Of a stretch of 64,000 bases of DNA, positions 13,323-33,748 are shown one piece after another. A program made the position numbers and the translations under genes. Under the pieces are notes generated by a model. The model did no database searches. It saw only the letters and a list, made by a program, of their open reading frames with translations, and had not been told where the DNA came from. Positions within the stretch are counted from its first letter, which is position 1, and each line of letters starts with the position of its first letter. The DNA lies in NCBI GenBank assembly GCA_022447225.1, contig JAKVAZ010000014.1, positions 62,001 through 126,000 on the forward strand, read 5' to 3'. This DNA comes from Fuerstiella sp. GTDB lineage: Bacteria; Planctomycetota; Planctomycetia; Planctomycetales; Planctomycetaceae.

Positions 13323-14499
13323 CAATGATCTCCAGAGTGGTGATTGAGTCCTGTTCGATTCCGCAGGCTGATTGTGATCTGCGGGGTGAAATTTGTGATC
13401 ATGCAGGGGGTATGATTCAAAGCAACCGTCGCAGGCGGTCCGTACCGTCACCGGCTACAGACAGCTCATCCCGTCAAACGTTTTTGGTGTGACGAATTGT
13501 GACAGGGCCGCAGTACTACATAATTCGTGCCAAACGTCGAACAGCCGCCAAAAGCAGTCGCCAACGGGCCTCGTGTTGGATTTGTTCTTCTGCAGTGCAG
13601 CAATTCGAAACAGGCCTTCAGCTTAGGTGTGCCAAATTGCACCAGCAAACGGGCAGTCGCTGGACACCATTTGACGCTCACCCCAAAGCTGTGGTCCGGG
13701 ACTAGATTGAACATCGCCGCGGTCAGAAACCGATGTCTTTCAGCAGCCTGGCCTTTGTTGGCAGGCCGGCGTTCCCACAGCAGTCGACAGACTGTTTTTG
13801 CGGGGTCGACCCTGTTTGGATTCAGCAAGTTCAATGGTTGTCAAACCGTGGATTCCGCCGTTCCCTCTGTAGGCCAAATTCAACGTGCACCGGGTACCAC
13901 AGACAGCATTCTGCACCGCCCGACTGCTCGAAGGGAAAGGGCGGTAAGCACGGAGGCAGACGTCCCTCAAATTTCTGTCCGATTCACTGGCGTGTTCTCT
14001 GAAGAACAGAGGGTGCTGCTGTATCATGCGAAGTGAATTGCCGTGGGCACGGTGTTATGCTGAGCGGTCGCGTGTTTACTTTGCTGAGCATCCTCGCCAC
14101 AGTCATTGCTCCTTTGGTGGGAAATTATTGATATCTGATTCCGACGCCTCTGACGATCCTTCCTTATCTCTGCAGCAGCAGAGTGATGTCACAGGCGATC
14201 GCTTTGAAGCTGATTGAATCCAGCATGGACATCAAGCAGATGATCGCTTGGTTTGAAGCCGAACGTTCGACCCTGACCATGACGGATCATTCGCACATTG
14301 CCAATCTGCCGGGTGTGGGGATCACGAAGCACGGCACTTCCTGCTTTATGCTGAAACGTTGCAAATCGGCTGAAATGGCAGCATGGAACCGAAGGGGCTG
14401 TGAAATTCATAAAAAACAAACAATGGTCAGACTGTGATTGGTCCTCAGAATGAGCTGATCACCGATTGTATGTCTGGTCACCAGATTAAAGGGATCAAA
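13323..14499. other. 1.2-kb gap with no supported gene
   Basis: Several overlapping frames on both strands (for example 13527-14036 plus, 13466-13834 minus, 14183-14437 plus) are open. None shows a recognisable domain, a signal peptide or a convincing RBS, and they contradict each other. The region may hold decayed coding DNA. Confidence 0.4.
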
Positions 14500-16038
14500 A
14501 TGTGGCGTGAGTATGAAATCCTGTGTCTGAGCCTTTGGGTGGTGAGTTGCTGTGGTTGCGCCCAGGATCAAGCCGATTCGGGAACGCCTCCGGAACCGAA
14601 AGCAGTGAACTCACAGAAGGTGGTACCTCAGGAAATCCCGGTCGCGACTGTTGAAGACTTGTTTGATCAGCTGGCAATTTCGTCGAGTCCTGCCGATTTT
14701 CTGTCAAAATTCACCGTGATACAAAGCGATCACGGTGATGCGGCCGTACGTCTGGCGGAACAGGAACTTGCTCAGCCGATTAAGAGCGATGTCAGTCCGG
14801 AAGAATCCGAAGTATTGGTTCGTCGTCAGGCCAATGCGGCAATCCTGCTGTTGAAACTGGATAAGCCACAGTCGGTGTGGCCTTTGCTGAAACAGAGTCC
14901 GGATCCCGGTCTCCGCAGTTCTATTATCAATTGGCTGGGCCCGCGGGGAGGTGATGTGCAGACTGTCATCTCCCGCTATGAACAGGAATCGGAAGTGAGC
15001 GTCCGGCGTGCGCTGCTGCTTTGTCTGGGGGAGTTTGAGTTATCGGATTCGGCTCGTCAGCCACTGATCGACAAACTGCTGGATGTTTACAGGAACGATC
15101 CGGAAGCGGGTGTTCATGCAGCGGCCGAATGGCTGCTGCGTCGGTGGTATGCGGCGGAACAACTGGTGATGATTGATGAAGAGCTTGCTCAGACCGGTGG
15201 ACAATTTTTGACGGTCGATGACAACGCCCGCGACTGGTTTATCAATGGCCAGGGGCAGACGTTTGCCGCGCTTGATGGCGGTGAATTTCAGATGGGATCT
15301 GCGGAAACGGAAGCTCACCATCAAGAAGATGAAAATTTGCACCGTCGTGTGATTGAAGGTCGATTTGCGATAGGTGTGAAAGAAGTGACGTTCGCCCAGT
15401 GGCGCACGTTCAGCAGTCAGGCGGGTCTGACGGATGATGAGTCTGTCAGTGGCAGCGATGACTCACCGGTGGTGAATGTAACCTGGTTTCAGGCCGTCCA
15501 TTACTGCAACTGGCTAAGCGAGCGGGAAGGGATTCCAGAGGATCAGTGGTGTTACGAAGCGAATGCTGACGGTGTTTACGGTCCGGGAATGAAATCTCAT
15601 GATAATTTTTGGGAGCGGGGCGGTTACCGCTTACCGACGGAGTCGGAATGGGAATATGCGTGTCGAGCGGGTTCAGTGACCAGTTATAACTACGGCAATA
15701 CGAACGACCTGTTGTCGAGGTATGCCTGGCACGGGGAGATTAGTGGAGATTATCCCCATCCTGTGGGTCTGCTGAAGCCGAACGACTTTGGTCTGTTCGA
15801 TATGCATGGGAATGTGTTGGAGTGGTGCTCGGACTGGTATGGTGAATATCCGGACGAAGTTGTCCGTGATCGCAAGGGACCTTTGCAGGGTTCGGACCGG
15901 GTGCTCCGGGGTGGCAGCTGGATCAGCAACGCCAGGTATTGCCGTTCAGCGTTCCGCATCTACTATGCGCCGGTCAACCGTTACATCAACCTGGGCTTTC
16001 GTGTGTGTCTGAGTCCGTCGGGGGCCGGAGGCCGGTAA
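14500..16038 (+). CDS. Lipoprotein with HEAT-like repeats and an FGE-sulfatase (C-type-lectin-like) domain
   Basis: From ATG 14500 the 512-residue protein has a lipoprotein signal (lipobox at Cys17 or Cys20). Residues about 70-230 are helical repeats resembling HEAT. Residues about 265-512 are an FGE-sulfatase domain: GGEFQMGSAE, VTFAQWRTF, 'VVNVTWFQAVHYCNWLS', YRLPTESEWEYACRAG, GLFDMHGNVLEWCSDWYGE, RVLRGGSW, and the C-terminal LGFRVCLSPSGAGG. Most bacterial proteins of this class are binding folds rather than true formylglycine-generating enzymes. The 3' 124 bases align with the DGR template at 26327-26450 without gaps. In the inner part (26333-26428), 15 differences fall on template adenines and 7 on other bases, as if this were an old DGR target that has since drifted. 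Confidence 0.8.
   Translation: MWREYEILCLSLWVVSCCGCAQDQADSGTPPEPKAVNSQKVVPQEIPVATVEDLFDQLAISSSPADFLSKFTVIQSDHGDAAVRLAEQELAQPIKSDVSPEESEVLVRRQANAAILLLKLDKPQSVWPLLKQSPDPGLRSSIINWLGPRGGDVQTVISRYEQESEVSVRRALLLCLGEFELSDSARQPLIDKLLDVYRNDPEAGVHAAAEWLLRRWYAAEQLVMIDEELAQTGGQFLTVDDNARDWFINGQGQTFAALDGGEFQMGSAETEAHHQEDENLHRRVIEGRFAIGVKEVTFAQWRTFSSQAGLTDDESVSGSDDSPVVNVTWFQAVHYCNWLSEREGIPEDQWCYEANADGVYGPGMKSHDNFWERGGYRLPTESEWEYACRAGSVTSYNYGNTNDLLSRYAWHGEISGDYPHPVGLLKPNDFGLFDMHGNVLEWCSDWYGEYPDEVVRDRKGPLQGSDRVLRGGSWISNARYCRSAFRIYYAPVNRYINLGFRVCLSPSGAGGR
15889..16017 (+). repeat. Degenerate VR-like segment in the FGE lipoprotein
   Basis: This stretch pairs base for base with the template repeat (offset 10438). 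The Asn-AAC codons of the template appear here as ATC, AGC, TTC, TAC, TAT or GTC, while the framework (GGSW, CRSA, LGF) is kept. Unlike the true VR it also carries several silent non-adenine changes and an eroded 3' end. It is therefore probably not an efficient acceptor for this template today. Confidence 0.5.
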
Positions 16039-17284
16039 GGGCAATGGCACAGAAGTATCGCGACCAGCGTAGCCAGTCTCTCGCGTTTTCTTTCAATCTC
16101 AGGCTCCGCCCTCCCTCAGTCCCAGGTTCCGGCCAGACATTGCCAGTTCTGGAAGCGGTGCGTGGATCGTTTCATCACTGAGGAACATTGGTTGTCACGG
16201 TGAGCAGGGAAACAGAGCTTTCCGGGCCGGCGCTCCGCAGTCGGAGCTGCGGAAAGAGATCACCAATCGAATAGTTTGACTGTTACCGACTCATGTGTTT
16301 TGCAGCTGGATGGAAAACAGCCCAAAAGGTGACTCGAAAGTATGACCTGAAGACAATGGAAGAACAATTCGTCAAAGCGAAGCCCGAACGGTCTGAATTG
16401 GCCTGGCATGCCTCTCATCAAACAGTGACTTGTCCGGATAAACACAGCTCATCAGTCAAACCGCTGGTACAAGATAGCCGAGGCGGGACTCGAACCCGCA
16501 CGCCCTTTACGGACCCGGGATTTTAAGTCCACCCATACTGTCTGACCAGTGTCCGGCGAGTGTCGGAACACTGGTTTTTGACGCGTGTGATTGATGCAGG
16601 AAACTGCGCCAAATGGCTGCTGCATCCAGTGCGAGGTGACACTTTAGGTGACACCTCGCCTGGGATCGGCAGGTCGAGATGTCAAAACATGATCTGGATG
16701 AGATCCGCTAAGCCATCGGGTTTTGCTGAACGAGCGTGGGAACATTCAGCAGCTTCAAGTTGCGCAGCATGAACTGCAGGCAGCCGACGTGAGCAGGCTG
16801 TCGCTGGGACGTGCAATGGATCCTCAGTCAGTTGTACCTCGCCGCACGCAAGGGGGGCCTTGACCCCCATCGCGGTGCCACATGTATTTAGGCAGGCCTC
16901 TGAGTTTTTTCCCGGCCCAAAGCTTGTTGTGATTTAGGGCAACAGGTCATACTCAGTCGCAGAATATGGTTTCCCGGGTAACGCAGGTCGAGCGAGAGCA
17001 TGGCCAAAGATCACGACAAAAGTCCTCGCGATCAAACCAGTATCGCAGGAGCCGCGGAGTGGCTTAGCCACGGGCCTGTAGACTGAGCGTCGATGCGATG
17101 ACCATCGACGTCCACGCACCAACCGGCGATTTCCCGATCACGTTCGGTTCAGATGATTCGCAGTATGACACAAACCACGATGTAGCGCATCCGCGTGTTG
17201 AGTGACGATCGGTTGGTGAGTGAGTTATGATCGCGTAGTGATACTTAAAGAACGTGCCGATTTGTGAAGCGAGGCTGCGGTGCT
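16039..17284. other. 1.2-kb gap with a tRNA fragment only
   Basis: No protein gene is supported here. It contains the tRNA-Leu 3' half at 16475-16531. It also has a small perfect inverted repeat (GCGAGGTG at 16631-16638 with CACCTCGC at 16652-16659). The first 100 bases weakly resemble the DNA after the DGR target gene. Confidence 0.45.
16475..16531 (-). tRNA. tRNA-Leu(TAA) 3' half (partial or pseudo-tRNA)
   Basis: Read on the minus strand this gives the anticodon loop CTTAAAA (anticodon TAA), the 3' side of the anticodon stem, a long variable arm, a perfect T arm around GGGTTCGAGTCCC, and the acceptor 3' strand CCTCGGC followed by TA. The 5' half does not complete the molecule: the D arm is poor, the anticodon stem 5' strand mismatches, and only about five acceptor pairs can form. 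A clean 3' half starting near the anticodon is what tRNA-targeting integrases leave, so it may mark an old attachment site. Confidence 0.5.
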
Positions 17285-21051: not shown

Positions 21052-21169
21052 CGGCGGTTACAAAAGGTATACGGGCTGGATTTCGGATTCATAGACGAAC
21101 GCCAGATTGTCCGAACGCTGTGGCGTGAGTATGCTGAGTGGATACACGATTGTTAAGTCGAGGATCTGC

Positions 21170-24100
21170 ATGTCGTCCCAGGACGCTCACGGCTGGATCG
21201 GCCAGACGCTGGCCGAGCGTTATCACGTCACCGAGAAACTCGGTGCCGGAGGCATGGGGACCGTCTACAAGGCCAGCGACATACGGTTGGTCACCGACGT
21301 GGTCATCAAAGTCCCGCACCCGATGATGATCAGGGATGCCGAGTTTGCCGCTCGTTTTCACCTGGAGATCCGCTCACTGGTCAAGCTGTCGCACCCGAAC
21401 ATCGTCAAGGCGCTGGACGTTGGTGTGCATGACGGTTTGCCGTTTGCGGTGATGCAGTACCTTTCCGGGGGCAGCCTGGAAGATCGCGTCCGTCCCTGCC
21501 GCCCGGCGGAGGTCGCGGCCTGGTTACCCGACGTAGCGGCTGCGTTGGATTTTCTGCACTCGGAAGGTCTGGTCCACCGGGACATCAAACCCGACAACAT
21601 TCTGTTCGATGCGTCGGGTCGCGCGTACCTAGGCGATTTCGGCATCGCCAAGGTGCTGGCCGAGAGTGAGGAGTCGGACGCGAAGCGGCTGACCGGCACC
21701 GGGACCCTGATCGGTACGGCGGAATACATGGCGCCGGAGATGCTGATTCCATCGGCCTATCAGGAAGCGTACAACGAACGAATTGATCAGTACTCGTTGG
21801 GAGTGACCGTGTATGAGCAGTTGTCGGGTCGTCCGCCGTTTCGTGGAAATACGATGGCGGAGGTGGTCGTACTTTTGGCGACAAAGCCGGCCACGCTGCT
21901 GCACAATCGGAATTCCGACATTCCGGAGTTGGTATCCCGTGTGGTGGGTCGGTCGTTATTCAAGAAGCCGGATCGTCGTTACGCGAGCTGTCTGGCGTTT
22001 TCAGAATCGTTTGCATCGGCTGTAAGCGGGGAAGCGGAGCCGGCCGTGGGAAAACCATCGTCCCCCCGTCGCAAGACGGATGCTCCGGCTGCGGCCAGGC
22101 GGCAAGCGACGCAGTTTGAGCGGCCGGGCAAGTCTGTTGCGCGTCCACGCACCCCGACGGTTCCGGAATCGTCACCACCTCCCGTGCGGCAGTCAACCGT
22201 GCGTGAGGCTGCCGTGCGGCGTACTCTTGCGGAAACACAGCCAGAACGTGGAGAGACCATCCGGGAGAAGCGGCCGCCAGCAGTTGAGGAGTCTGTCAAA
22301 GCACCATTACAGAAAAACTGGTCGTCGCGCAACAAAGTGGTTCTCTGGTTGGTTGGCGGTGTGATCTGCTTAAGTGTACCGGTCCTCGCCATTCTGATCG
22401 GCTTTGTTTTCGGGAACGTGCATCCGAATGGTCCCAACGACTCGAGCCCGGTAGTCACTTCCGACCAGCAAACGGATCAGGACGCCGAGAGGAAACGCCT
22501 GGCAGATCAGGACGCCGCGAGGAAACGCGAGGCAGATCAGCAATCCGAGAAAGCAGCCGCCGTATTGGTACCGAACCCCGATCCGCCCGCTGTGTTGTCT
22601 CAGGTTCCGACTTCGACATCGCCAGAGGTCGAGAACTCCATACCAGAGATGGAGAACTCCATCGGCATGGAGTTGAAGCTTCTTCTTGGTGGAACATTCA
22701 TGATGGGCGAAGGTGGTGCTGCCCATCAGGTGATATTAACGAAGCCGTTTTATCTTGGTGTGTACGAGGTAACCCAGACGCAATATGAGCGGGTGATGGG
22801 TAACAACCCGAGTAAATTCAAGGGGCAAAGCAATCCTGTGGAGCAAGTGTCTTGGGATGACGCGGTAGAGTTCTGCCGCAAGTTGTCCTCGTTGCCTGGG
22901 GAAAAGTCAGCTGGTCGCGTGTATCGATTGCCGACAGAAGCAGAATGGGAATACGCCTGCCGTGCGGGGACGACGACGGCATACAGTTTTGGCGACAACC
23001 AGAGTCATCTGACCGAATACGGTTGGTTTAGAGAGAACTCGGGGAGAACCACGCATGCGGTTGGCAAAAAGAAACCAAACCCATGGGGTTTGTTCGATAT
23101 GCACGGCAACGTTTATGAGTGGTGTCAGGATCGATACGGGACTTATCCGGATGGGCCAGTGACAGATCCCATGGTCCCCGCGTCTGGCTCGACGGCCGTG
23201 CGACGGGGCGGAGGCTGGTCCTACTATGCGTCCGCTTGTAGTTCGTCTTACCGTATCAGTAACTGGCCGGACAAACGGCCCTCCGCCCTGGGCTTCCGCG
23301 TGGTCCTGAGTCCGGCTGCACAGGAGCATACTGGTGCAATGAGTTCTCGCAGGAGTACGTCCCACTCGAGTTCCCATGTGGGTGCTTATGGACACCCGGC
23401 TGTGGCGACTCAGGTGAAATTTACCGGACAGCCAGGAATGGTTATTGGCTGGAAAGTGTCCGACGGCTGGGCCAATGACCAGTTGATCTCCGGAAGTCGC
23501 TTCGATTTTCCGCAAAATGCAGTCTACCAGCTGAAGTTCACTGGCTTCTCCATGGAGGGCTACGAGGGACTCCAGTTGTACCCAACACTTGAAGTTCGTG
23601 GCACAGATCCGAACACTCGGGAATACCTCGAACACAGCGTTGTACCGGTTGAAGTCACCGAAGAAGATCTGGAACACGTCATCCATAACAATATGGTGAC
23701 AAAGGTCATCTATCTACCGGATCCAAAACATCAGTCCCGAGCGATTGCCGCTGTGGAAACATTGATTTCCACCAGGCTCGCCCCAGGCATCGACCCGGTT
23801 CAACAGGCTGAACGCATGGGCTCCATTCTGGTTGTGCTGCGATTCGGCAACAAGGATTTGGAAATGCCAACGGCCGTGATGGCTGCAAACGGCACTTTTG
23901 CGACCGAGGATAGCGGCGATACGGGCGCCGAGAGGAAACGGCTGGCAGATCAGGACACTTCCGACCAGCAAACGGATCCCGTAAAGACGAATTCCATCGG
24001 TATGCAGTTGAAGTTTCTTCCTGGTGGGACATTTAGTATGGGATCAGATTCAGGAGACAGTGATGAACGTCTTCATCAGGTGACTCTCACGCAGCCGTTT

Positions 24101-24688
24101 TACATGGGCGTCTCCGAAGTAACGCAGGAGCAGTACGAGCGGGTGATGGGCACCAACCCAAGTCACTTCAAAGGTGCAAAGCATCCAGTTGAGCAGGTGA
24201 GTTGGGATGACGCGGTGTCGTTCTGCCGGATGTTGTCCTCGTTGCCTGCGGAAAAGTCTGCGGGTCGAGTGTATCGATTACCGACGGAGGCAGAATGGGA
24301 ATACGCATGCCGAGCGGGAACGACCACGGAATACAGTTTCAGTGACCGTGATTCGCGATTGGACGAATACGCGTGGTTTGCAGACAACTCTGGTAAGACG
24401 ACCCATCCGGTTGGTCGACAGCGCGCGAATGGTTGGGGCTTGTACGACATGCATGGGAACGTGTGGGAGTGGTGTAGTGACTGGTACGGGGAATACCCAA
24501 GTGGCTCTGTGAGGAATCCCAGCGGACCGTCTTCGGGCTCGTTCCGGGTGTTCCGGGGCGGTTGCTGGTTCTACGCCGCCAGGAATTGCCGGTCGGCGAA
24601 CCGCGACAACAGCGCGCCGGACGACCGCTACCGCGACCTGGGCTTCCGCTTGGTCCTGAGTCCGTCCGCCGCCGGAGGCGCGAGATGA
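21170..24688 (+). CDS. Transmembrane Ser/Thr receptor kinase with two FGE-fold ectodomains; DGR target
   Basis: ATG 21170 follows GAGGATCTGC; an open frame continues up to 21107, and the residue numbers below count from 21107. A Hanks-type kinase occupies about 39-305: glycine loop GAGGMGTV, VAIK-like VVIKV, HRDIKPDN, GDFG and GTAEYMAPE. A Pro/Arg-rich juxtamembrane linker (310-405) leads to one transmembrane helix (409-436) with basic residues on the kinase side. FGE-fold domain 1 spans 515-737. An unrecognised beta-rich domain spans about 765-925. FGE-fold domain 2 spans 963-1193. Two similar coiled ERKRLADQD linkers precede the FGE domains. Residues 1144-1185 are encoded by the DGR variable repeat, so the surface of the last ectodomain is hypervariable. 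The last gene-specific residues are AAGGAR. Confidence 0.92.
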   Translation: MSSQDAHGWIGQTLAERYHVTEKLGAGGMGTVYKASDIRLVTDVVIKVPHPMMIRDAEFAARFHLEIRSLVKLSHPNIVKALDVGVHDGLPFAVMQYLSGGSLEDRVRPCRPAEVAAWLPDVAAALDFLHSEGLVHRDIKPDNILFDASGRAYLGDFGIAKVLAESEESDAKRLTGTGTLIGTAEYMAPEMLIPSAYQEAYNERIDQYSLGVTVYEQLSGRPPFRGNTMAEVVVLLATKPATLLHNRNSDIPELVSRVVGRSLFKKPDRRYASCLAFSESFASAVSGEAEPAVGKPSSPRRKTDAPAAARRQATQFERPGKSVARPRTPTVPESSPPPVRQSTVREAAVRRTLAETQPERGETIREKRPPAVEESVKAPLQKNWSSRNKVVLWLVGGVICLSVPVLAILIGFVFGNVHPNGPNDSSPVVTSDQQTDQDAERKRLADQDAARKREADQQSEKAAAVLVPNPDPPAVLSQVPTSTSPEVENSIPEMENSIGMELKLLLGGTFMMGEGGAAHQVILTKPFYLGVYEVTQTQYERVMGNNPSKFKGQSNPVEQVSWDDAVEFCRKLSSLPGEKSAGRVYRLPTEAEWEYACRAGTTTAYSFGDNQSHLTEYGWFRENSGRTTHAVGKKKPNPWGLFDMHGNVYEWCQDRYGTYPDGPVTDPMVPASGSTAVRRGGGWSYYASACSSSYRISNWPDKRPSALGFRVVLSPAAQEHTGAMSSRRSTSHSSSHVGAYGHPAVATQVKFTGQPGMVIGWKVSDGWANDQLISGSRFDFPQNAVYQLKFTGFSMEGYEGLQLYPTLEVRGTDPNTREYLEHSVVPVEVTEEDLEHVIHNNMVTKVIYLPDPKHQSRAIAAVETLISTRLAPGIDPVQQAERMGSILVVLRFGNKDLEMPTAVMAANGTFATEDSGDTGAERKRLADQDTSDQQTDPVKTNSIGMQLKFLPGGTFSMGSDSGDSDERLHQVTLTQPFYMGVSEVTQEQYERVMGTNPSHFKGAKHPVEQVSWDDAVSFCRMLSSLPAEKSAGRVYRLPTEAEWEYACRAGTTTEYSFSDRDSRLDEYAWFADNSGKTTHPVGRQRANGWGLYDMHGNVWEWCSDWYGEYPSGSVRNPSGPSSGSFRVFRGGCWFYAARNCRSANRDNSAPDDRYRDLGFRLVLSPSAAGGAR
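23288..23314 (+). repeat. IMH-like copy at the end of FGE domain 1
   Basis: These 27 bases match the end of the VR (24638-24664) at 26 positions. The DNA before them has diverged widely from the template, including many non-adenine changes. It is best explained by internal duplication of the FGE domain that kept the conserved LGFR strand. Confidence 0.45.
24536..24661 (+). repeat. DGR variable repeat (VR)
   Basis: The VR aligns with the TR at 26327 with a constant offset of 1791 and no gaps. In 124 bases there are 17 differences; all 17 are at template adenines (9 A to T, 7 A to G, 1 A to C) and none are at the 92 other bases. Changed codons give Phe, Phe, Cys, Phe, Tyr, Ala, Asp, Ser, Ala, Asp, Tyr, Arg and Asp in place of template Asn, Ser or Thr. 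The unmutated 3' 22 bases are identical in both copies and would be the initiation-of-mutagenic-homing region. Confidence 0.96.
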
Positions 24689-24726
24689 GCGGAGCGTGCG
24701 ACGTAAGCCCGGAGGGAGCAAGGCGG

Positions 24727-24745
24727 AGCCGCGACCGCCGCGGCT
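24727..24745. promoter_or_regulatory. GC-rich hairpin downstream of the VR
   Basis: AGCCGCG (24727-24733) and CGCGGCT (24739-24745) form a perfect 7-bp GC-rich stem with a 5-nt loop, 66 bases after the VR. In the Bordetella phage DGR a similar stem-loop just after the VR promotes homing. The larger spacing here makes the role uncertain. Confidence 0.4.
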
Positions 24746-24854
24746 GGAGTGTACGTGTAGCCACAGTTTCCGGCGACGAGCGCAGCGAGGCGCTGGCGTT
24801 TGATTTTGTGGGGCGCAAGCATTTCATGATCCGTCCTGCGATCCGGACAGCCTG

Positions 24855-25352
24855 ATGGCCTTACGTTTTTTCACGATTCCAGTTCAGGCAGACGATGATG
24901 CAGCTCAGGAGCTGAACTCGTTTCTGAACGCTCATAAAGTGTTATCAGTGGAACGGCACTTCGTTGACCAGGGTGTGAACTCCTTTTGGGCCATCTGTGT
25001 TGATTTCTTCGCAGGCGAATCGAAAAAGTCTCCAGTGGCGTCGCGGGGGCGAAGTCAGGTCGACTACAAAGAAATCCTGTCGTCCGATGAATTCACCGTG
25101 TTTTCGGAACTGCGACGAATTCGTAAAGCGATCTCGCAGAAAGAAGCAGTTCCGGTGTATGCCATTTTTACGAATGAGCAGCTCGCTCAGATGGTGCAGC
25201 GACGCTGTCGGTCAAAAACAGCGTTGCTGAACATCGAGGGAATCGGAGAGGGACGCGTTGAAAAGTATGGCAGTCAGATTCTTGAAGTTCTTTGCGTTCA
25301 ATTAAGTCCGGACGATGAAACGAACGAGCCAGCTGTTTCCACAGATACCTAA
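24855..25352 (+). CDS. DGR accessory protein with HRDC domain
   Basis: The 165-residue product begins MALRFFTIPVQ and has an N-terminal module (FLNAHKVLSVERHF, NSFWAICVDF) of the type found beside DGR reverse transcriptases. A C-terminal HRDC domain follows (about 75-150: SELRRIRKAISQ, VPVYAIFTNEQLAQM, LLNIEGIGEGRVEKYG). HRDC folds bind nucleic acid. In DGRs such proteins stand in for Avd, which binds template RNA and RT for cDNA priming. No Avd gene is present here. The 3' end overlaps the RT gene by 38 bases, so the two are probably translationally coupled. Confidence 0.88.
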   Translation: MALRFFTIPVQADDDAAQELNSFLNAHKVLSVERHFVDQGVNSFWAICVDFFAGESKKSPVASRGRSQVDYKEILSSDEFTVFSELRRIRKAISQKEAVPVYAIFTNEQLAQMVQRRCRSKTALLNIEGIGEGRVEKYGSQILEVLCVQLSPDDETNEPAVSTDT

Positions 25353-26355
25353 AAGAAACAACCTGCGGCTCGCATTCTATCGTGCGGCTCGCGGAAAACG
25401 CGATCGCTCTGTCGTTCGTCAGTTCGCAAAGAAACTGGACAGAAACCTTGAGAACATGTCGGAACAATTGCTCGCCGGCGTCGTTCCCGTTGGACAGTAC
25501 CGGCAGTTTGTGATTCGCGATCCGAAAGAGCGCGTGATCACTGCTCCCTGTTTTTCGGAACGCGTTCTGCATCACGCGATTATCAATATCTGCGAGCCGT
25601 ACTTCGAACGATGGCTGATCAAAGACACGTATGCCTGCCGCCGAGGCAAAGGTCGCGAAGCCGCAATAAACAGAGCGAGTGTGTTTTCCCGCAGGCACCG
25701 TTGGTTTTCACAGTTGGATGTCAGGAAATATTTTGACAACATTTCGCATCAGCGACTGCTGTGCCTGCTGCGCCGACGATTCAAAGACCTTCCACTGCTG
25801 GCCCTGATGCGACGCATCATTGTCGCATTTCGCGGGGAATCCGGGCGTGGATTACCAATTGGCAGTTTGACATCACAGCATTTTGCCAACCTGTATCTGG
25901 GGCACGTTGACCGGTATGCCAAAGAACAACTGCAACTGCCAGGTTATGTGCGATACATGGATGACATGGTCTTGTGGCACGATGATCGAAAACAACTGGA
26001 ACGGATCACACAGAAATGCACGCAATACCTGAAGGAAAATCTGGATTTGGATGTCAAGCCGCCGATCCTGAACCGTACTGACTTTGGAATCAATTTTCTG
26101 GGCTGCCGAGTGTTTCCGACGCACACGATTCTCAGCCGTCGCAGCAGGATTCGCTGGCGGCGAAAGCTACAAGACGTGCAACGCCAGTGGGCACAGGGAT
26201 TGATCAGTGAACACGGGCTGCAACAACGCCTCAACTCTCTGACGGCCTTCGGTGTCGCCGCAAATACGCAGAGTTGGCATTTCCGTTCAACAGTGTTAGA
26301 ACAGTTTCAGGTGGACGATCATGAAAGGCTCGAACCGGGTGAACCGGGGCGGTAG
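25315..26355 (+). CDS. DGR reverse transcriptase
   Basis: The 346-residue protein carries the RT domains in order. Motif 3 is DVRKYFDNI, with a catalytic Asp at 135. IGSLTSQ at 182-188 is the DGR hallmark, replacing the QG motif of retroviral and group II RTs. The catalytic YMDD lies at 214-217, followed by the LGCRVF strand near 263. There is no maturase or endonuclease domain, as expected for a DGR RT. ATG 25315 lies inside the accessory gene. The stop codon TAG at 26353-26355 lies inside the template repeat, so the last ten residues are encoded by TR DNA. The RT would copy TR RNA with adenine-specific misincorporation. Confidence 0.95.
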
Positions 26356-26452
26356 CTGGAACAACACCGCCAGGAATTGCCGGTCGGCGAACCGCAACAA
26401 CAACACGCCGGACAACCGCAACAACAACCTGGGCTTCCGCTTGGTCCTGAAT
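26327..26452 (+). repeat. DGR template repeat (TR)
   Basis: The TR contains repeated AAC codons (Asn) at the positions that vary in the VR, the usual design for maximal amino-acid change by adenine mutagenesis. Of 32 adenines in the 124-base core (26327-26450), 17 differ in the VR. The similarity may begin as early as 26324, because the preceding AAA is also changed. Adenine 26451 differs too, and the first non-adenine mismatch is at 26453. The first 29 bases overlap the RT gene. Confidence 0.96.
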
Positions 26453-28826: not shown

Positions 28827-31073
28827 ATGAACATGTTATTAAATGAGTACCCGAACGACAAAGAAGAAACGCGGCAACACGCGCGAGGCCAATGGTGCAA
28901 CATCCTGTGGGATGTGTGCGGGCTGACTAATGAACAGCTGGATCCGAAAGTGCATGGGCCGTGCCCCAAATGCGGAGGCAAAGACCGATTCCGGGCGTTC
29001 GACGATGTGGCTGAAAGCGGCGGCGTCTTGTGCAACCAGTGCCACGACAAGCGGAACGCAGACGGTTTTTCGACCATAGAATGGATGCTGGACTGTACCT
29101 TTCCTGAAGCCTTAGAGCGGGTCGATGATTGGCTGAGTGGTGGCGGTGGCAATAGAAAAACATTGCCGGCAAATGCCGGTAAATTGCAGAAGAGCCATAA
29201 ATCGAAAACCGCCCACGACGATGTTGAGCGGGCCATTTCCGCAACAGCATGGAGCCTCGAGCAGAATCACCTGATTACTACGCAACGGGCACCTGATGCT
29301 CTCTGGGAATACACGGGTAGGGAAGGTGAGCCGATTGGATATGTTTTGCGATGGGATACTCAGAACGGCAAAGAAATTCGGCAGGTAAGCCGCACTGACA
29401 CTGGCTGGGTGTGCGGAGCGATGAATGAACCCCGACCGCTGTATGGCTTGAGAGATCTGGTCGCGGCGGAAACGGTGTATGTCTGTGAGGGCGAAAAAGC
29501 AGCAGACGCTGCTCGGTTGCTGGGATTAGCTGCTACGACGTCCAGCCAGGGTTCTGCATCACCGCAAAAATCGGACTGGTCGGTACTAAGTGGTAAACAT
29601 GTGGTGTTGCTTCCCGATCACGACGAGGCGGGGAAAAAGTACGCATCCCAAGTCGCGAAGTTGATCCGCGAACAGGCAGCTCACACAGTCGTGGAAATCA
29701 AATGTCTATCCGACGACTGGCCTGACATTCCGGTTGGTGGCGACCTTCATAACTGGTGCGAGCACTATCACACGGAAGGACTGGATGTACCAGCGATACT
29801 TGAGCGTCTGAAAGCCATTGAATCCAGACCTTCCACAGAAGGCGAAAGCGGCAGCGAAGTCACACGAGTCCTAAGGTTTGCCGGAGTAGACGTTGCGGAT
29901 CATTGGCACCTTATCAATGAGCCGACGAAGTGGCTGGTGGATGACATTTTCTCATGCGGTCAACCGACCATCGTTGGGGCTAAGCAGAAGTCACTTAAGA
30001 CAACTCTAATGGCTGACCTCTGTGTCGCTCTCGCAACTGGTCGTTCTTGGCTGGGGGAATTCACTGTACCACTGCAACGGCGTGTGCTGTTAATCACAGG
30101 GGAGGCTTCTCTCAAGTCAGCTTTGAAGAAGCTTGGCAAGGCAGCTGGCTCCGGGTGTGGTCCGGAACAGCTTAAGCACTGGATCAGGGTTGAAGCTGCA
30201 AACTTCCCAACATTGCCCCGTCAGCCAGATTGTGATGCCGTGGCGGCGGCTATTGTGGAACATGACATCGACGTCGTTATTCTGGACCCGCTTTACATGG
30301 GCCTGGAGGGCTTGAATACCGCCAATCTCACCGAGGTTGGTCCGGCAATGCGACGATTCATGGCCGCGTGCCGACCAGCTGAAGTCGTTATCTGCCACCA
30401 CGTAAAAAAAACTGCCAGTTTTGACGACGCTCCCAATCTCGAGGACCTAAGCCAAGCCGGCATCGCTGAATTCGCTGGCAACTACTGGTTGATGGGCCGG
30501 ATGGGTGAATACCAAGGCGAAGGCATTCATAACATAGCGATCCGCGCAGGCGGTCGAGACGATCAGTTCCACCTTCTACAAATGAATTTTAACGAGATCT
30601 TGTGGCAAGCAGATTTTGTGGACCTCCAGGAACACCGAGAAAAACGAATAGCCGACAGACAAACAAAAAAACACGAAGCTGAAGCCAAGATCCATCACGC
30701 CAAAGTCGAGCGTGCCCGAGCACGCATTACTTCCATTATGCGGAACCACAAGACTCCGCGATCTAAGAGGAATATCGAAGACCTTAGAGGTGAAGTCCCG
30801 CAACTGGCGTTTCGTGAGGCCTTCGCAGACATGGTTACGGAAAAAACCATCGCGATTCACCCGTACCGCGACGTTCAGCGTCGGCTTGTGCAAGGCGGCT
30901 ATCTGCTTGCTGAGTACGGCGACGAGTACGAGAAGGAATTCGCCGAATCTGAATCAGTCGAATCTGAATCAGTCGAATCTGAATCAGTCGAATCTGAATC
31001 AGCGACTAACGACACTGAACAGGAAGACGGTAAGCCAAAAGAGTGTGAGGAACCTGAGGAGGATACTCGTTGA
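28827..31073 (+). CDS. Mobile-element primase-helicase
   Basis: The 748-residue protein combines replication modules. An N-terminal zinc-binding primase domain lies near residues 40-75 (CPKCGGKDRF...CNQCH). A TOPRIM-like domain follows near 210-290 (VYVCEGEKAADAARLLG, VVLLPDHDEAGKKY). Next comes a RepA/AAA-type helicase near 370-600, with P-loop GAKQKSLKTT, RVLLITGEAS and Walker B VVILDPLYMG. This is the primase-helicase layout of satellite phages and integrative plasmids. The C-terminus is a low-complexity ESESV tail. It should initiate autonomous replication of the element, probably from the repeats just upstream. Confidence 0.82.
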   Translation: MNMLLNEYPNDKEETRQHARGQWCNILWDVCGLTNEQLDPKVHGPCPKCGGKDRFRAFDDVAESGGVLCNQCHDKRNADGFSTIEWMLDCTFPEALERVDDWLSGGGGNRKTLPANAGKLQKSHKSKTAHDDVERAISATAWSLEQNHLITTQRAPDALWEYTGREGEPIGYVLRWDTQNGKEIRQVSRTDTGWVCGAMNEPRPLYGLRDLVAAETVYVCEGEKAADAARLLGLAATTSSQGSASPQKSDWSVLSGKHVVLLPDHDEAGKKYASQVAKLIREQAAHTVVEIKCLSDDWPDIPVGGDLHNWCEHYHTEGLDVPAILERLKAIESRPSTEGESGSEVTRVLRFAGVDVADHWHLINEPTKWLVDDIFSCGQPTIVGAKQKSLKTTLMADLCVALATGRSWLGEFTVPLQRRVLLITGEASLKSALKKLGKAAGSGCGPEQLKHWIRVEAANFPTLPRQPDCDAVAAAIVEHDIDVVILDPLYMGLEGLNTANLTEVGPAMRRFMAACRPAEVVICHHVKKTASFDDAPNLEDLSQAGIAEFAGNYWLMGRMGEYQGEGIHNIAIRAGGRDDQFHLLQMNFNEILWQADFVDLQEHREKRIADRQTKKHEAEAKIHHAKVERARARITSIMRNHKTPRSKRNIEDLRGEVPQLAFREAFADMVTEKTIAIHPYRDVQRRLVQGGYLLAEYGDEYEKEFAESESVESESVESESVESESATNDTEQEDGKPKECEEPEEDTR
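30945..31002 (+). repeat. 15-bp tandem repeat in the primase-helicase gene
   Basis: gaatctgaatcagtc occurs almost four times in a row, encoding ESESV units at the acidic C-terminus. The length is a multiple of three, so slippage would change repeat number without a frameshift. Confidence 0.8.
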
Positions 31074-31111
31074 TGCTCGTTAACGAGGACCAACGAACAT
31101 CTATTCGGAAG

Positions 31112-31168
31112 GAGGTGTGTGTGTGTTGTTTTCCCCTTTAGGGGGAAACAACGACAAACACATACCTC
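31112..31168. promoter_or_regulatory. Long RNA hairpin after the primase-helicase gene
   Basis: A 12-bp stem (31125-31136 with 31141-31152, one G-U pair, TTTA loop) is extended by GAGGT (31112-31116) and ACCTC (31164-31168) with a GT-rich imperfect middle. No U-run follows on the plus strand. It may be an attenuator, a processing site or a packaging signal of the element. Confidence 0.5.
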
Positions 31169-31214
31169 ATGTACATACGGCATCTTTGCAAGGGTTACAG
31201 AAACGGAGAGTTAA

Positions 31215-31334
31215 ATGGCAGAATCAAGTGAGGTGAACTCGATCCGAGGGTTAAAACGAAAGAAACATACTCTGGTCGGGCATGACGGACGCACAGCTGG
31301 CGAACTCACGGTGGAAGATCATGTGGCTGATTGA
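31215..31334 (+). CDS. Small basic protein, 39 residues
   Basis: ATG 31215 follows GGAGAG nine bases upstream. The product MAESSEVNSIRG... contains a central LKRKKHTL basic patch and an acidic end. It lies between the primase-helicase and the terminase-like gene in the same direction. No family is recognised; short length keeps confidence low. Confidence 0.35.
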   Translation: MAESSEVNSIRGLKRKKHTLVGHDGRTAGELTVEDHVAD

Positions 31335-31469
31335 ATAGGCAAAAGGTCGTTCAGCAGTCGTTACTAAGCTTCAGGGAGGGGTAAGGGGGCAAAAAGTTAC
31401 AAGCCATCCCTTCACAGAACCCCAATCCTAACGCGCACAAAAAAATCGATTTTTGAAAGCAGAGATGAC

Positions 31470-31814
31470 ATGAACCCCGAGGACATTGGGCATCTGGATC
31501 CTGGTACGGCTGAGTGGTACACCGACATTGCTGAGATGTATCAGCTGTCAACCGTCAAACTGCGGACGCTGTTGGTTGCGGCAGAGGCATTTGATCGGTC
31601 GCAGCAGTGTCGTCGAGAGGTTGAAGCGGCTGGGCTGATGGTTCTTGATCGCTACGGCCAAAGCAAAGTTCATCCCGCATCAGACGCTGAGAAGTCAGCA
31701 AAGAGTCTCTACCTGGCCGCCTTGAAATCACTCGACCTGGACAACGTCCCTGAGCCAGTGACTAGAGGGCCGGCGCACAAATACCTGTCGAAGAGCGCGG
31801 TTGCAATCGAATAG
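31470..31814 (+). CDS. P27-like phage terminase small subunit
   Basis: The 114-residue product matches the P27 small-terminase pattern: YQLSTVKLRTLLVAAEAFDRSQQCRREVEAAGLMVLDRYGQSKVHPASDAEK, with the 'RYGQ.K.HPA' turn typical of the family. Small terminases select DNA for packaging. A stand-alone copy without large terminase, portal or capsid genes is what phage satellites use to redirect a helper phage's packaging. The final KSAVAIE codons are repeated in degenerate form at 32269. Confidence 0.75.
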   Translation: MNPEDIGHLDPGTAEWYTDIAEMYQLSTVKLRTLLVAAEAFDRSQQCRREVEAAGLMVLDRYGQSKVHPASDAEKSAKSLYLAALKSLDLDNVPEPVTRGPAHKYLSKSAVAIE

Positions 31815-31817
31815 TTT
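31800..31817 (+). repeat. 18-bp direct repeat, copy 1
   Basis: gttgcaatcgaatagttt recurs exactly at 32269-32286. This copy spans the last codons and stop of the small-terminase gene. Confidence 0.6.
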
Positions 31818-31857
31818 GCGGCAAAGACTCCCAGTGTAATGGCGCTCTTTTAGGTGA

Positions 31858-31882
31858 ACCGCCAGGTGCGTTGCCTGGCGGT
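31858..31882. promoter_or_regulatory. 9-bp perfect hairpin after the terminase-like gene
   Basis: ACCGCCAGG (31858-31866) and CCTGGCGGT (31874-31882) surround a 7-nt loop. It lies 44 bases after the stop codon. Without a U-run it is a weak terminator candidate. Confidence 0.45.
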
Positions 31883-31982
31883 GTTCCACGGGGTTCATAT
31901 GACAGACGCTTTTGAATTGTTAATTGGGATTAACAAATTCCGTGGGAAATAAACTACTTCGCTACAGCAGTTCAATGTGTCA

Positions 31983-32159
31983 CTACAAGAGGAATAAAGC
32001 CCCTAAAAAAAACACGACAATAAAGATAAGAACGATGCAACCAAGGGCTACTGCTTCATCCTCTTCACCTGGCCAAGTTATTCCGCCGCCACAATGTGGG
32101 CATGTTTTGCCGCCTTGGCCAATCCCGTTTCCACAGTGCGGACATGGTGTCAGAGCCAT
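31983..32159 (-). CDS. Small double zinc-ribbon membrane protein
   Basis: ATG 32159 gives 58 residues: two CPHCG knuckles (CPHCGNG and CPHCGGG), a short acidic linker, and a strongly hydrophobic C-terminal helix (ALGCIVLIFIVVFFLGALFLL). This is the layout of tiny zinc-ribbon tail-anchored proteins. A longer open frame extends to 32396 but lacks a plausible N-terminus. It is the only minus-strand gene of the element between the terminase and the integrase. Confidence 0.6.
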   Translation of the reverse strand: MALTPCPHCGNGIGQGGKTCPHCGGGITWPGEEDEAVALGCIVLIFIVVFFLGALFLL

Positions 32160-32268
32160 TTCATTGAACCTTCGGTAGTGGATGAAATTTATGACTGACT
32201 CCGAGTCTATAAACCAGAGCTCCTGCTTCAACTGTTGTATGTGTGAATACAAGTGCAGGATCGCGTCA

Positions 32269-32286
32269 GTTGCAATCGAATAGTTT
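32269..32286 (+). repeat. 18-bp direct repeat, copy 2
   Basis: Exact copy of 31800-31817. The preceding 20 bases are also partly similar and encode a SVAIE-stop ending in the same frame, suggesting a remnant of a duplicated terminase gene end. Confidence 0.55.
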
Positions 32287-32452
32287 TTTGGGAACATACA
32301 GATCCTTAAATCTAGTGTGAAAAATTTGAACTCTCCCGTCCCGCGTGGACGGTTAAACGCTGCTGCTATGTGTTGCATGTCCGGAAACGGCTGCACGGTT
32401 TACTAGAACCGAAGGACGCTAAGGCCGCAGCGTTTTTGCGTGGAGTTTTTCA

Positions 32453-33595
32453 ATGGCTAAGCGAGCTAAAAACGAAGGCACGATTTTTTGTCGCAAATCT
32501 GACGGACGCTGGGTAGGCCGAATCCAGATCGGCGTTGATGCCGTCACAGGAAACAAGAAGCGGAAAGTCGTCTACGGCAAGACAGAACAAGAAGTCGTTG
32601 GCAAACTGGCGGCACTCAGGATGCAGTCTGGCAAGGCGATAGACTTTGAACGTCAGAAGGATTCGCTGGCGGCATTTCTCTCATGGTGGCTGGAATACGA
32701 AGTGAAGCCGAATCGGGCTGGCAAGACTTATCTGGAATATGAACTTGCCGTCAGGCTCTACATCGTGCCGTTCATTGGCGGAATAAAACTTGCCAGACTG
32801 AACGTCAGGGATATCAGTCAGTGGATGGCGGCTATGTCTCGAAAGAAGTTCACGAACAACATGCGGAAGCGGGCATTGCGTGTCTGTCGCGCGGCACTCA
32901 ACCGAGGCATCAAACTACAGTGTGTGGACAGCAATCCCGCCAATGCGGTTGATATGCCAAAGGTTCGAAAGCGTGAAATCAGGCCACTCGAAGTCAGTGA
33001 ATGCAATTCGCTGTTTGCTGCCTGTAAAGATCATCGATTAGGTGATGCAATCATCGTGGCAGCGACTACGGGACTCAGAAAGGGTGAAGTCCTGGCATTA
33101 AAGTGGGCTGCCGTGAATCTGTCAGAAGGTGTTCTGGTAGTCCGTGAGACGTTGGAAGAGGTTGCTGGAGGATTGCGAACGAAGGCTCCGAAGACGGCAG
33201 CAGGGAGGCGAGTCGTAACGCTGGGAGCCATTGCTGTCGAAGCACTAAAGCGCCGTCGTAAGAAAGCACTGGCAGACGGCATGGAGCCGTCAGAGATCCC
33301 GTTGGTATTTCCGACAACGACTGGCACCCTACAGCGGCCATCAAACTTCGATCGCAGAGTCTGGCATCCTATTCGGGAAGCCGCTGGAATTTCGGACGAC
33401 TTCACGTTCCATGATCTGCGACACACTCAGGCAAGCCTGATGATTGCGGCTGGCGTGCCGATGAAGATCGTCCAGGAACGACTAGGGCACAGTGATTACA
33501 CCTTAACAGCGAATACCTACAGCCATCTGATGAAGGGGGCGCAGGCAGAGGCTGCTGAAAAGGTGGATCGGCTGTTTGTAAATGTACCTGTTTGA
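32453..33595 (+). CDS. Tyrosine recombinase / integrase
   Basis: The 380-residue protein has an N-terminal arm-binding domain (GTIFCRKSDGRWVGRIQIG), a SAM-like core-binding domain (about 65-150), and a catalytic domain with the expected residues: Arg in ATTGLRKGEVLAL, HDLRHTQASLM box, and the tyrosine in ANTYSHLM. It ends 80 bases from the 3' end of tRNA-Arg, the classical position for an integrase acting on a tRNA gene. It should integrate and excise the element at 27-33.7 kb. The matching left attachment copy was not found by eye. Confidence 0.92.
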   Translation: MAKRAKNEGTIFCRKSDGRWVGRIQIGVDAVTGNKKRKVVYGKTEQEVVGKLAALRMQSGKAIDFERQKDSLAAFLSWWLEYEVKPNRAGKTYLEYELAVRLYIVPFIGGIKLARLNVRDISQWMAAMSRKKFTNNMRKRALRVCRAALNRGIKLQCVDSNPANAVDMPKVRKREIRPLEVSECNSLFAACKDHRLGDAIIVAATTGLRKGEVLALKWAAVNLSEGVLVVRETLEEVAGGLRTKAPKTAAGRRVVTLGAIAVEALKRRRKKALADGMEPSEIPLVFPTTTGTLQRPSNFDRRVWHPIREAAGISDDFTFHDLRHTQASLMIAAGVPMKIVQERLGHSDYTLTANTYSHLMKGAQAEAAEKVDRLFVNVPV

Positions 33596-33674
33596 ATCCG
33601 CCAAGGTACATTTTTGAGGTACACAGCAGACCGTTCGAGAATACACACAGTTGTTTCACCAATGAAAAAACAAA

Positions 33675-33748
33675 TACGCCCGGCAGGATTCGAACCTGCG
33701 ACCTACGGTTTAGAAGACCGTTGCTCTATCCAGCTGAGCTACGGGCGC
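33675..33748 (-). tRNA. tRNA-Arg (anticodon TCT)
   Basis: The 74-nt minus-strand sequence folds into a full cloverleaf: acceptor GCGCCCG/CGGGCGT, D arm with GCTCAGCTGGATAGAGC, anticodon stem ACGGT/ACCGT with loop CTTCTAA, and T arm with GGTTCGAATCC. CCA is not encoded. It is the probable integration target of the neighbouring integrase. Confidence 0.95.

Follow-up and report, generated by a model that had tools for sequence, protein, structure and literature searches.

Gene content of the locus

The stretch analyzed here (the window) spans 64,000 nucleotides of contig 14 in a Fuerstiella genome of 5.43 Mb; within it, a lipoprotein gene (LIP) lies ten kilobases upstream of a DGR (Table 1). The open frame of LIP starts with a GTG at 14434, and translation more likely begins with the ATG at 14500, since this yields a signal peptide; the lipobox was judged by eye. 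The C-terminal domain of the predicted protein matched Pfam PF03781 (E 2.6e-49), and the HEAT repeats were weak (PF13646, HEAT_2, 8.5e-5, under the family's own cut-off). The top solved relative of LIP was TvpA (2y3c, E 1.2e-35), the variable protein of the Treponema denticola DGR, with catalytic FGEs following far behind (E 6e-19). Catalytic formylglycine-generating enzymes (FGEs) carry two active-site cysteines in a C-terminal motif. In LIP this motif reads RGGSWISNARYCRSAFR and contains one Cys, and in the FGE-like gene L001 of the same genome it reads RGGSFMCSEQYC, with both. With a single catalytic cysteine in place of two, the FGE domain of LIP is predicted to be a binding fold and not an enzyme. 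Homologues of LIP found in other genomes came in bulk from planctomycetes.

The DGR contains a reverse transcriptase (RT) with a YMDD motif beside the template (TR), an FGE-domain gene whose VR differs from TR at adenines only, and an HRDC-domain accessory gene. Relatives of the RT were 36–55% identical to it. The element looks intact, and live or recently live, since mismatches between the VR of its kinase and TR were confined to TR adenines; we therefore refer to this kinase as the live target.

Table 1. Positions of LIP, the DGR and related features; coordinates refer to the window unless another contig is named.
Feature	Position	Strand	Description
Lipoprotein gene (LIP)	14500..16038	+	Lipobox-like N-terminus (VVSC), HEAT repeats, C-terminal FGE-sulfatase domain
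Putative drifted (fossil) VR in LIP	15888..16012	+	Ungapped alignment to TR; wobble retention P 0.0003
3′ flank CTGAGTCCGTCGGGGGCCGGAGGCCG	16009..16034	+	Mostly beyond TR; common to LIP, live target and paralogue
DGR, whole	21107-26450		Kinase with two FGE domains, HRDC-domain gene, RT, TR
Live DGR target, Ser/Thr kinase with two FGE domains	21107..24688	+	Pfam Pkinase 2.4e-44; FGE-sulfatase twice
Matching segment of first FGE domain of kinase	23190..23314	+	Mismatches to TR: 22/33 A, 22/92 non-A
Live VR in second FGE domain of kinase	24535..24659	+	Mismatches to TR: 18/33 A, 0/92 non-A
HRDC-domain accessory gene	24849..25319	+	PF00570, E 1.2e-18
DGR reverse transcriptase	25315..26355	+	YMDD motif; PF00078, E 9.2e-17
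TR	26326..26450	+	Overlaps RT 3′ end; sole TR-like copy in genome
LIP paralogue (L086, L008)	G000 contig 1, 29952-31184	minus	64% identity to LIP, residue 105 onward

Similarity of the LIP 3′ end to the template

The 3′ end of LIP aligned to TR without gaps, as originally predicted; whole-genome searches, run either way, recovered the match at 79% identity over 113 nt (E 5e-21). Among 12 TRs tested, that of the genome itself fitted LIP best, and none of the 11 foreign ones was a better match. Within 15889–15998, LIP differed from TR at 15 of 31 template adenines and at 8 of 79 other positions, one more of the latter than first counted (15 and 7). Six of these eight non-adenine differences were silent, in line with their earlier description as mostly silent; the remaining two were ACC>AAC and the wobble base of AAC>TAT. 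Over 15889–16012, the counts rose to 15 of 32 adenines and 14 of 92 other positions, with the six extra non-adenine differences all located in the last 14 nt, that is, in the 3′ homing segment (IMH), which had been called eroded. The similarity had been drawn 5 nt too far, to 16017, whereas the end of TR at 26450 corresponds to 16012 in LIP. Thus, mismatches in LIP are not confined to adenines, and its homing segment is not near-identical to that of TR.

Adenine bias in FGE genes at large

The original prediction took the adenine bias of these differences as a sign of past diversification. We compared LIP with a control set of 55 FGE C-termini whose genomes gave no RT match in a first search. 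This set is not perfectly clean, as candidate DGR-type RTs turned up in a few of the genomes when a more sensitive search was run later; removing six control loci of the genomes concerned left the codon-identity comparison unchanged. The odds ratio of adenine bias against TR had a median of 3.6 among the controls, and 20% of them reached the value of LIP (5.1). When control FGE genes were compared pairwise, with TR uninvolved, they differed at 71% of TR-adenine columns vs 44% of the others. The bias was also present in all gaplessly aligning FGE paralogues of the genome, including a distant one (26/33 adenine and 43/92 non-adenine differences from TR), and LIP showed 12 template-adenine mismatches vs 15.0 expected at its non-adenine divergence. 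Adenine bias against TR is therefore a general property of FGE C-termini, since the columns occupied by template adenines are variable family-wide; in LIP it does not exceed that of FGE genes at large, and it cannot serve as proof of DGR origin. Identity to TR was similarly uninformative: 44 of the 55 controls were more than 50% identical to it, so the threshold of at least 50% nucleotide identity by which remote targets were defined in a cyanobacterial survey (PMC7517822) is unusable for FGE targets. The resemblance of LIP to TR is nevertheless far beyond chance, although its adenine bias alone is ordinary for FGE genes.

These comparisons favor ordinary paralogy, in which LIP would be a plain FGE-family protein owing both its similarity to TR and its adenine bias to ancestry and family-variable columns. 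This explanation predicts neither of the two codon patterns described below, and we consider it unlikely.

Codon signatures of probable past writing

Error-prone copying by a DGR alters adenines only, so that a replaced AAC codon retains its C. In LIP, 12 of 14 codons were reachable from TR by adenine changes, and 11 of the 12 replaced template-adenine codons kept the third base of TR, where 4.9 were expected from the gene's own codon usage (P 0.0003; P 0.0025 with the pooled usage of neighboring genes), in a test that was conceived after the data were seen. Wobble bases other than C were also kept (AAT>TAT and ACG>GCG). The live VR retained 10 of 10 (P 0.0002). In addition, codons for Phe, Tyr, His, Asn, Asp, Cys and Ile ended in C in 10 of 13 cases in the LIP segment vs 43 of 118 in the remainder of LIP (P 0.006), and no other run of 13 two-fold or Ile codons in LIP had more than 7. 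Most of the 55 controls gave unremarkable wobble P values, and three passed at 0.001. These three (L091 in G090, L092 in G012 and L095 in G083) are homologues of the LIP body with a VR-like wobble signature; none of their genomes has a clear DGR-type RT, and the three may be relics too, as candidate fossil targets. The matching segment in the first FGE domain of the kinase, with a wobble P of 0.012, is a possible older relic.

The second pattern concerns synonymous identity. LIP and the live target share 46% amino acid identity in their bodies, and at shared residues the same codon was used in 29 of 76 cases (0.38) in the FGE body and in 15 of 23 (0.65) in the VR (P 0.02). For a paralogue of LIP on another contig, the step against the live target was from 26/70 (0.37) to 19/22 (0.86; P 5e-5). 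Identity thus rises at the VR boundary in LIP, and most strongly in the paralogue, which ordinary paralogy does not predict, as it does not predict the retained wobble bases. Conserved LIP codons matched TR in only 10 of 17 cases, vs 0.40 in the controls (P 0.09), which tells against past writing.

Paralogue, 3′ flank and relatives

The open frame of the paralogue lacks the first ~105 residues of LIP. Its C-terminus matched TR at 82%, with 13/33 adenine and 10/92 non-adenine differences, and passed the wobble test at 0.01. It has drifted too, because two of its codons, AGG and CGA, cannot be derived from TR by adenine changes alone. By these sequence features, the paralogue C-terminus is a putative further drifted VR, overlooked in the original prediction, so that the genome would hold two such relics.

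LIP, the paralogue and the live target have a 3′ flank in common, and the pattern GAGTCCGTCNGNNGCCGGAGGC occurred only in these three among 332 loci. In the paralogue the shared flank extends past the stop codon, and this was the only convincing genome-wide match of that flank. A possible short inverted repeat (GGCC-GGA-GGCC) was noted by eye in the LIP flank, where another fold was preferred; we propose no conserved stem-loop downstream of the three genes, since their folds disagree. The motif GGCGGAGCCGCGAC, noted 3′ of the live VR, had one match in the window, which is the chance level.

Because the shared flank lies outside TR, plain sharing of the gene end contributes to the resemblance. 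The flank could even be read as if the gene end were the source, with TR and VR captured from the end of a LIP-like gene and later enriched in adenine, LIP itself never having been a target. Such a reversal of direction leaves the excess of C-ending codons at exactly these positions of LIP unexplained, and homologous DGRs with similar TRs occur in many genera, which makes TR older than the LIP of this genome. We regard it as quite improbable.

Homologues of the LIP body include VR-bearing targets with adenine-dominated mismatches beside their own RT and TR, at two loci in G058 and one genome further (G051); the homologue in G057 is probably a DGR target as well. Two genomes of the same genus yielded no LIP orthologue, the top match being another FGE gene (40% identical) in one and nothing in the other, and a search for synteny through the neighboring ABC gene gave no matches in the same genus. 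As a separate observation, a HEAT-FGE gene in G047 (L221; contig 57, 5026-5154, minus strand) resembles VRs in its C-ending codons and shares the VCLSPS tail of LIP; the TR of the DGR in that genome (L074) was examined as its template and did not match.

Origin of the LIP 3′ end

We conclude, with a probability of about 0.7, that LIP ends in a fossil VR, once a remote target of the DGR in the window or of its direct ancestor. The claim that this or a related DGR diversified the segment in the past is thus probably right, on the grounds of wobble retention, synonymous identity, the 3′ flank and the relatives; the adenine-bias argument originally given for it is not diagnostic, as the same bias is seen in paralogues and in genomes that look DGR-free. 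In the history we propose, the RT would have made error-prone copies of TR, the errors falling on adenines, and the resulting cDNA would then have replaced the 3′ end of the FGE-domain lipoprotein gene, setting residues on the presumed ligand-binding face of a TvpA-like fold. Copying into LIP would later have stopped, with a loss of homing marked by the six changes in the 3′ segment, and silent changes would have built up alongside those in the homing segment while the fold stayed under purifying selection. The paralogue, which is full-length at this end, would share the same history.

It is very improbable that LIP is still a functional, rarely written remote target, served by the TR of this genome or by one missing from the assembly: it is well established that remote targets can share one RT and TR (PMC4891356, PMC7517822) and the assembly is 97% complete (33 contigs), but the fourteen non-adenine differences argue against recent copying from the genome's TR, and genome searches found neither another TR-like copy nor a further DGR-type RT adjoining one. 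Likewise, no second DGR was found in the genome as a writer of LIP; with the other RT match, a 593 aa frame on contig C7, these searches found no TR-like sequence. A LIP that was once written and is now presumably inactive therefore remains our preferred reading.

It is possible, and we put it forward tentatively on the strength of the three homologues L091, L092 and L095, that HEAT-FGE proteins of this group have become DGR targets on repeated occasions and were frozen afterward. If so, DGR-free genomes would hold a legible record of hypermutation in the form of C-ending codons at former template-adenine positions. Adenine bias against TR and nucleotide identity thresholds fail to identify old DGR targets in FGE genes; better tests are wobble retention at replaced codons and a step in synonymous identity at the VR edge. 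Both could allow fossil targets to be cataloged and the turnover of DGR targets to be measured in planctomycete-like genomes.

Comparison with known systems

A fossil target, as LIP probably is, belongs to a kind already known from other bacteria, for example T. denticola. There, up to seven FGE-type targets, mostly predicted lipoproteins, depend on a single RT and TR, and the accessory gene is an HRDC gene overlapping the RT; some targets are "suspicious" in having excessive VR mutations, and others are leftovers in DGR-less strains (PMC4891356). The present system resembles this TvpA-type DGR in its FGE/C-type-lectin targets, lipoprotein signals, HRDC gene overlapping the RT, and remote and drifted targets (PMC4891356). 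It differs in belonging to another phylum, in having a kinase with two FGE domains as the adjacent live target, and in the HEAT repeats that stand between the signal peptide and the FGE domain of LIP. The combination of kinase and C-type-lectin targets with dispersed paralogues carrying TR-like 3′ ends recalls the remote variable proteins of cyanobacteria (PMC7517822). In Thiohalocapsa PB-PSB1, a single genome likewise combines complete loci with decayed DGR parts and has FGE-domain targets; however, it is the machinery that decays there, whereas here a drifted target stands without machinery of its own (PMC10907252).

Possible mobile sequences nearby

Beside the DGR, the region 28827–33748 looks like an integrated element, with a primase/ATPase-like gene, a tyrosine integrase and an end that adjoins tRNA-Arg (33675-33748, minus strand); a repeat of this tRNA end was not found within the window. 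Just downstream of LIP, ARAGORN detected no intact tRNA at 16478-16540 on the minus strand, and the sequence there resembles the 3′ half of tRNA-Leu. This fragment is possibly the scar of an integrated element.
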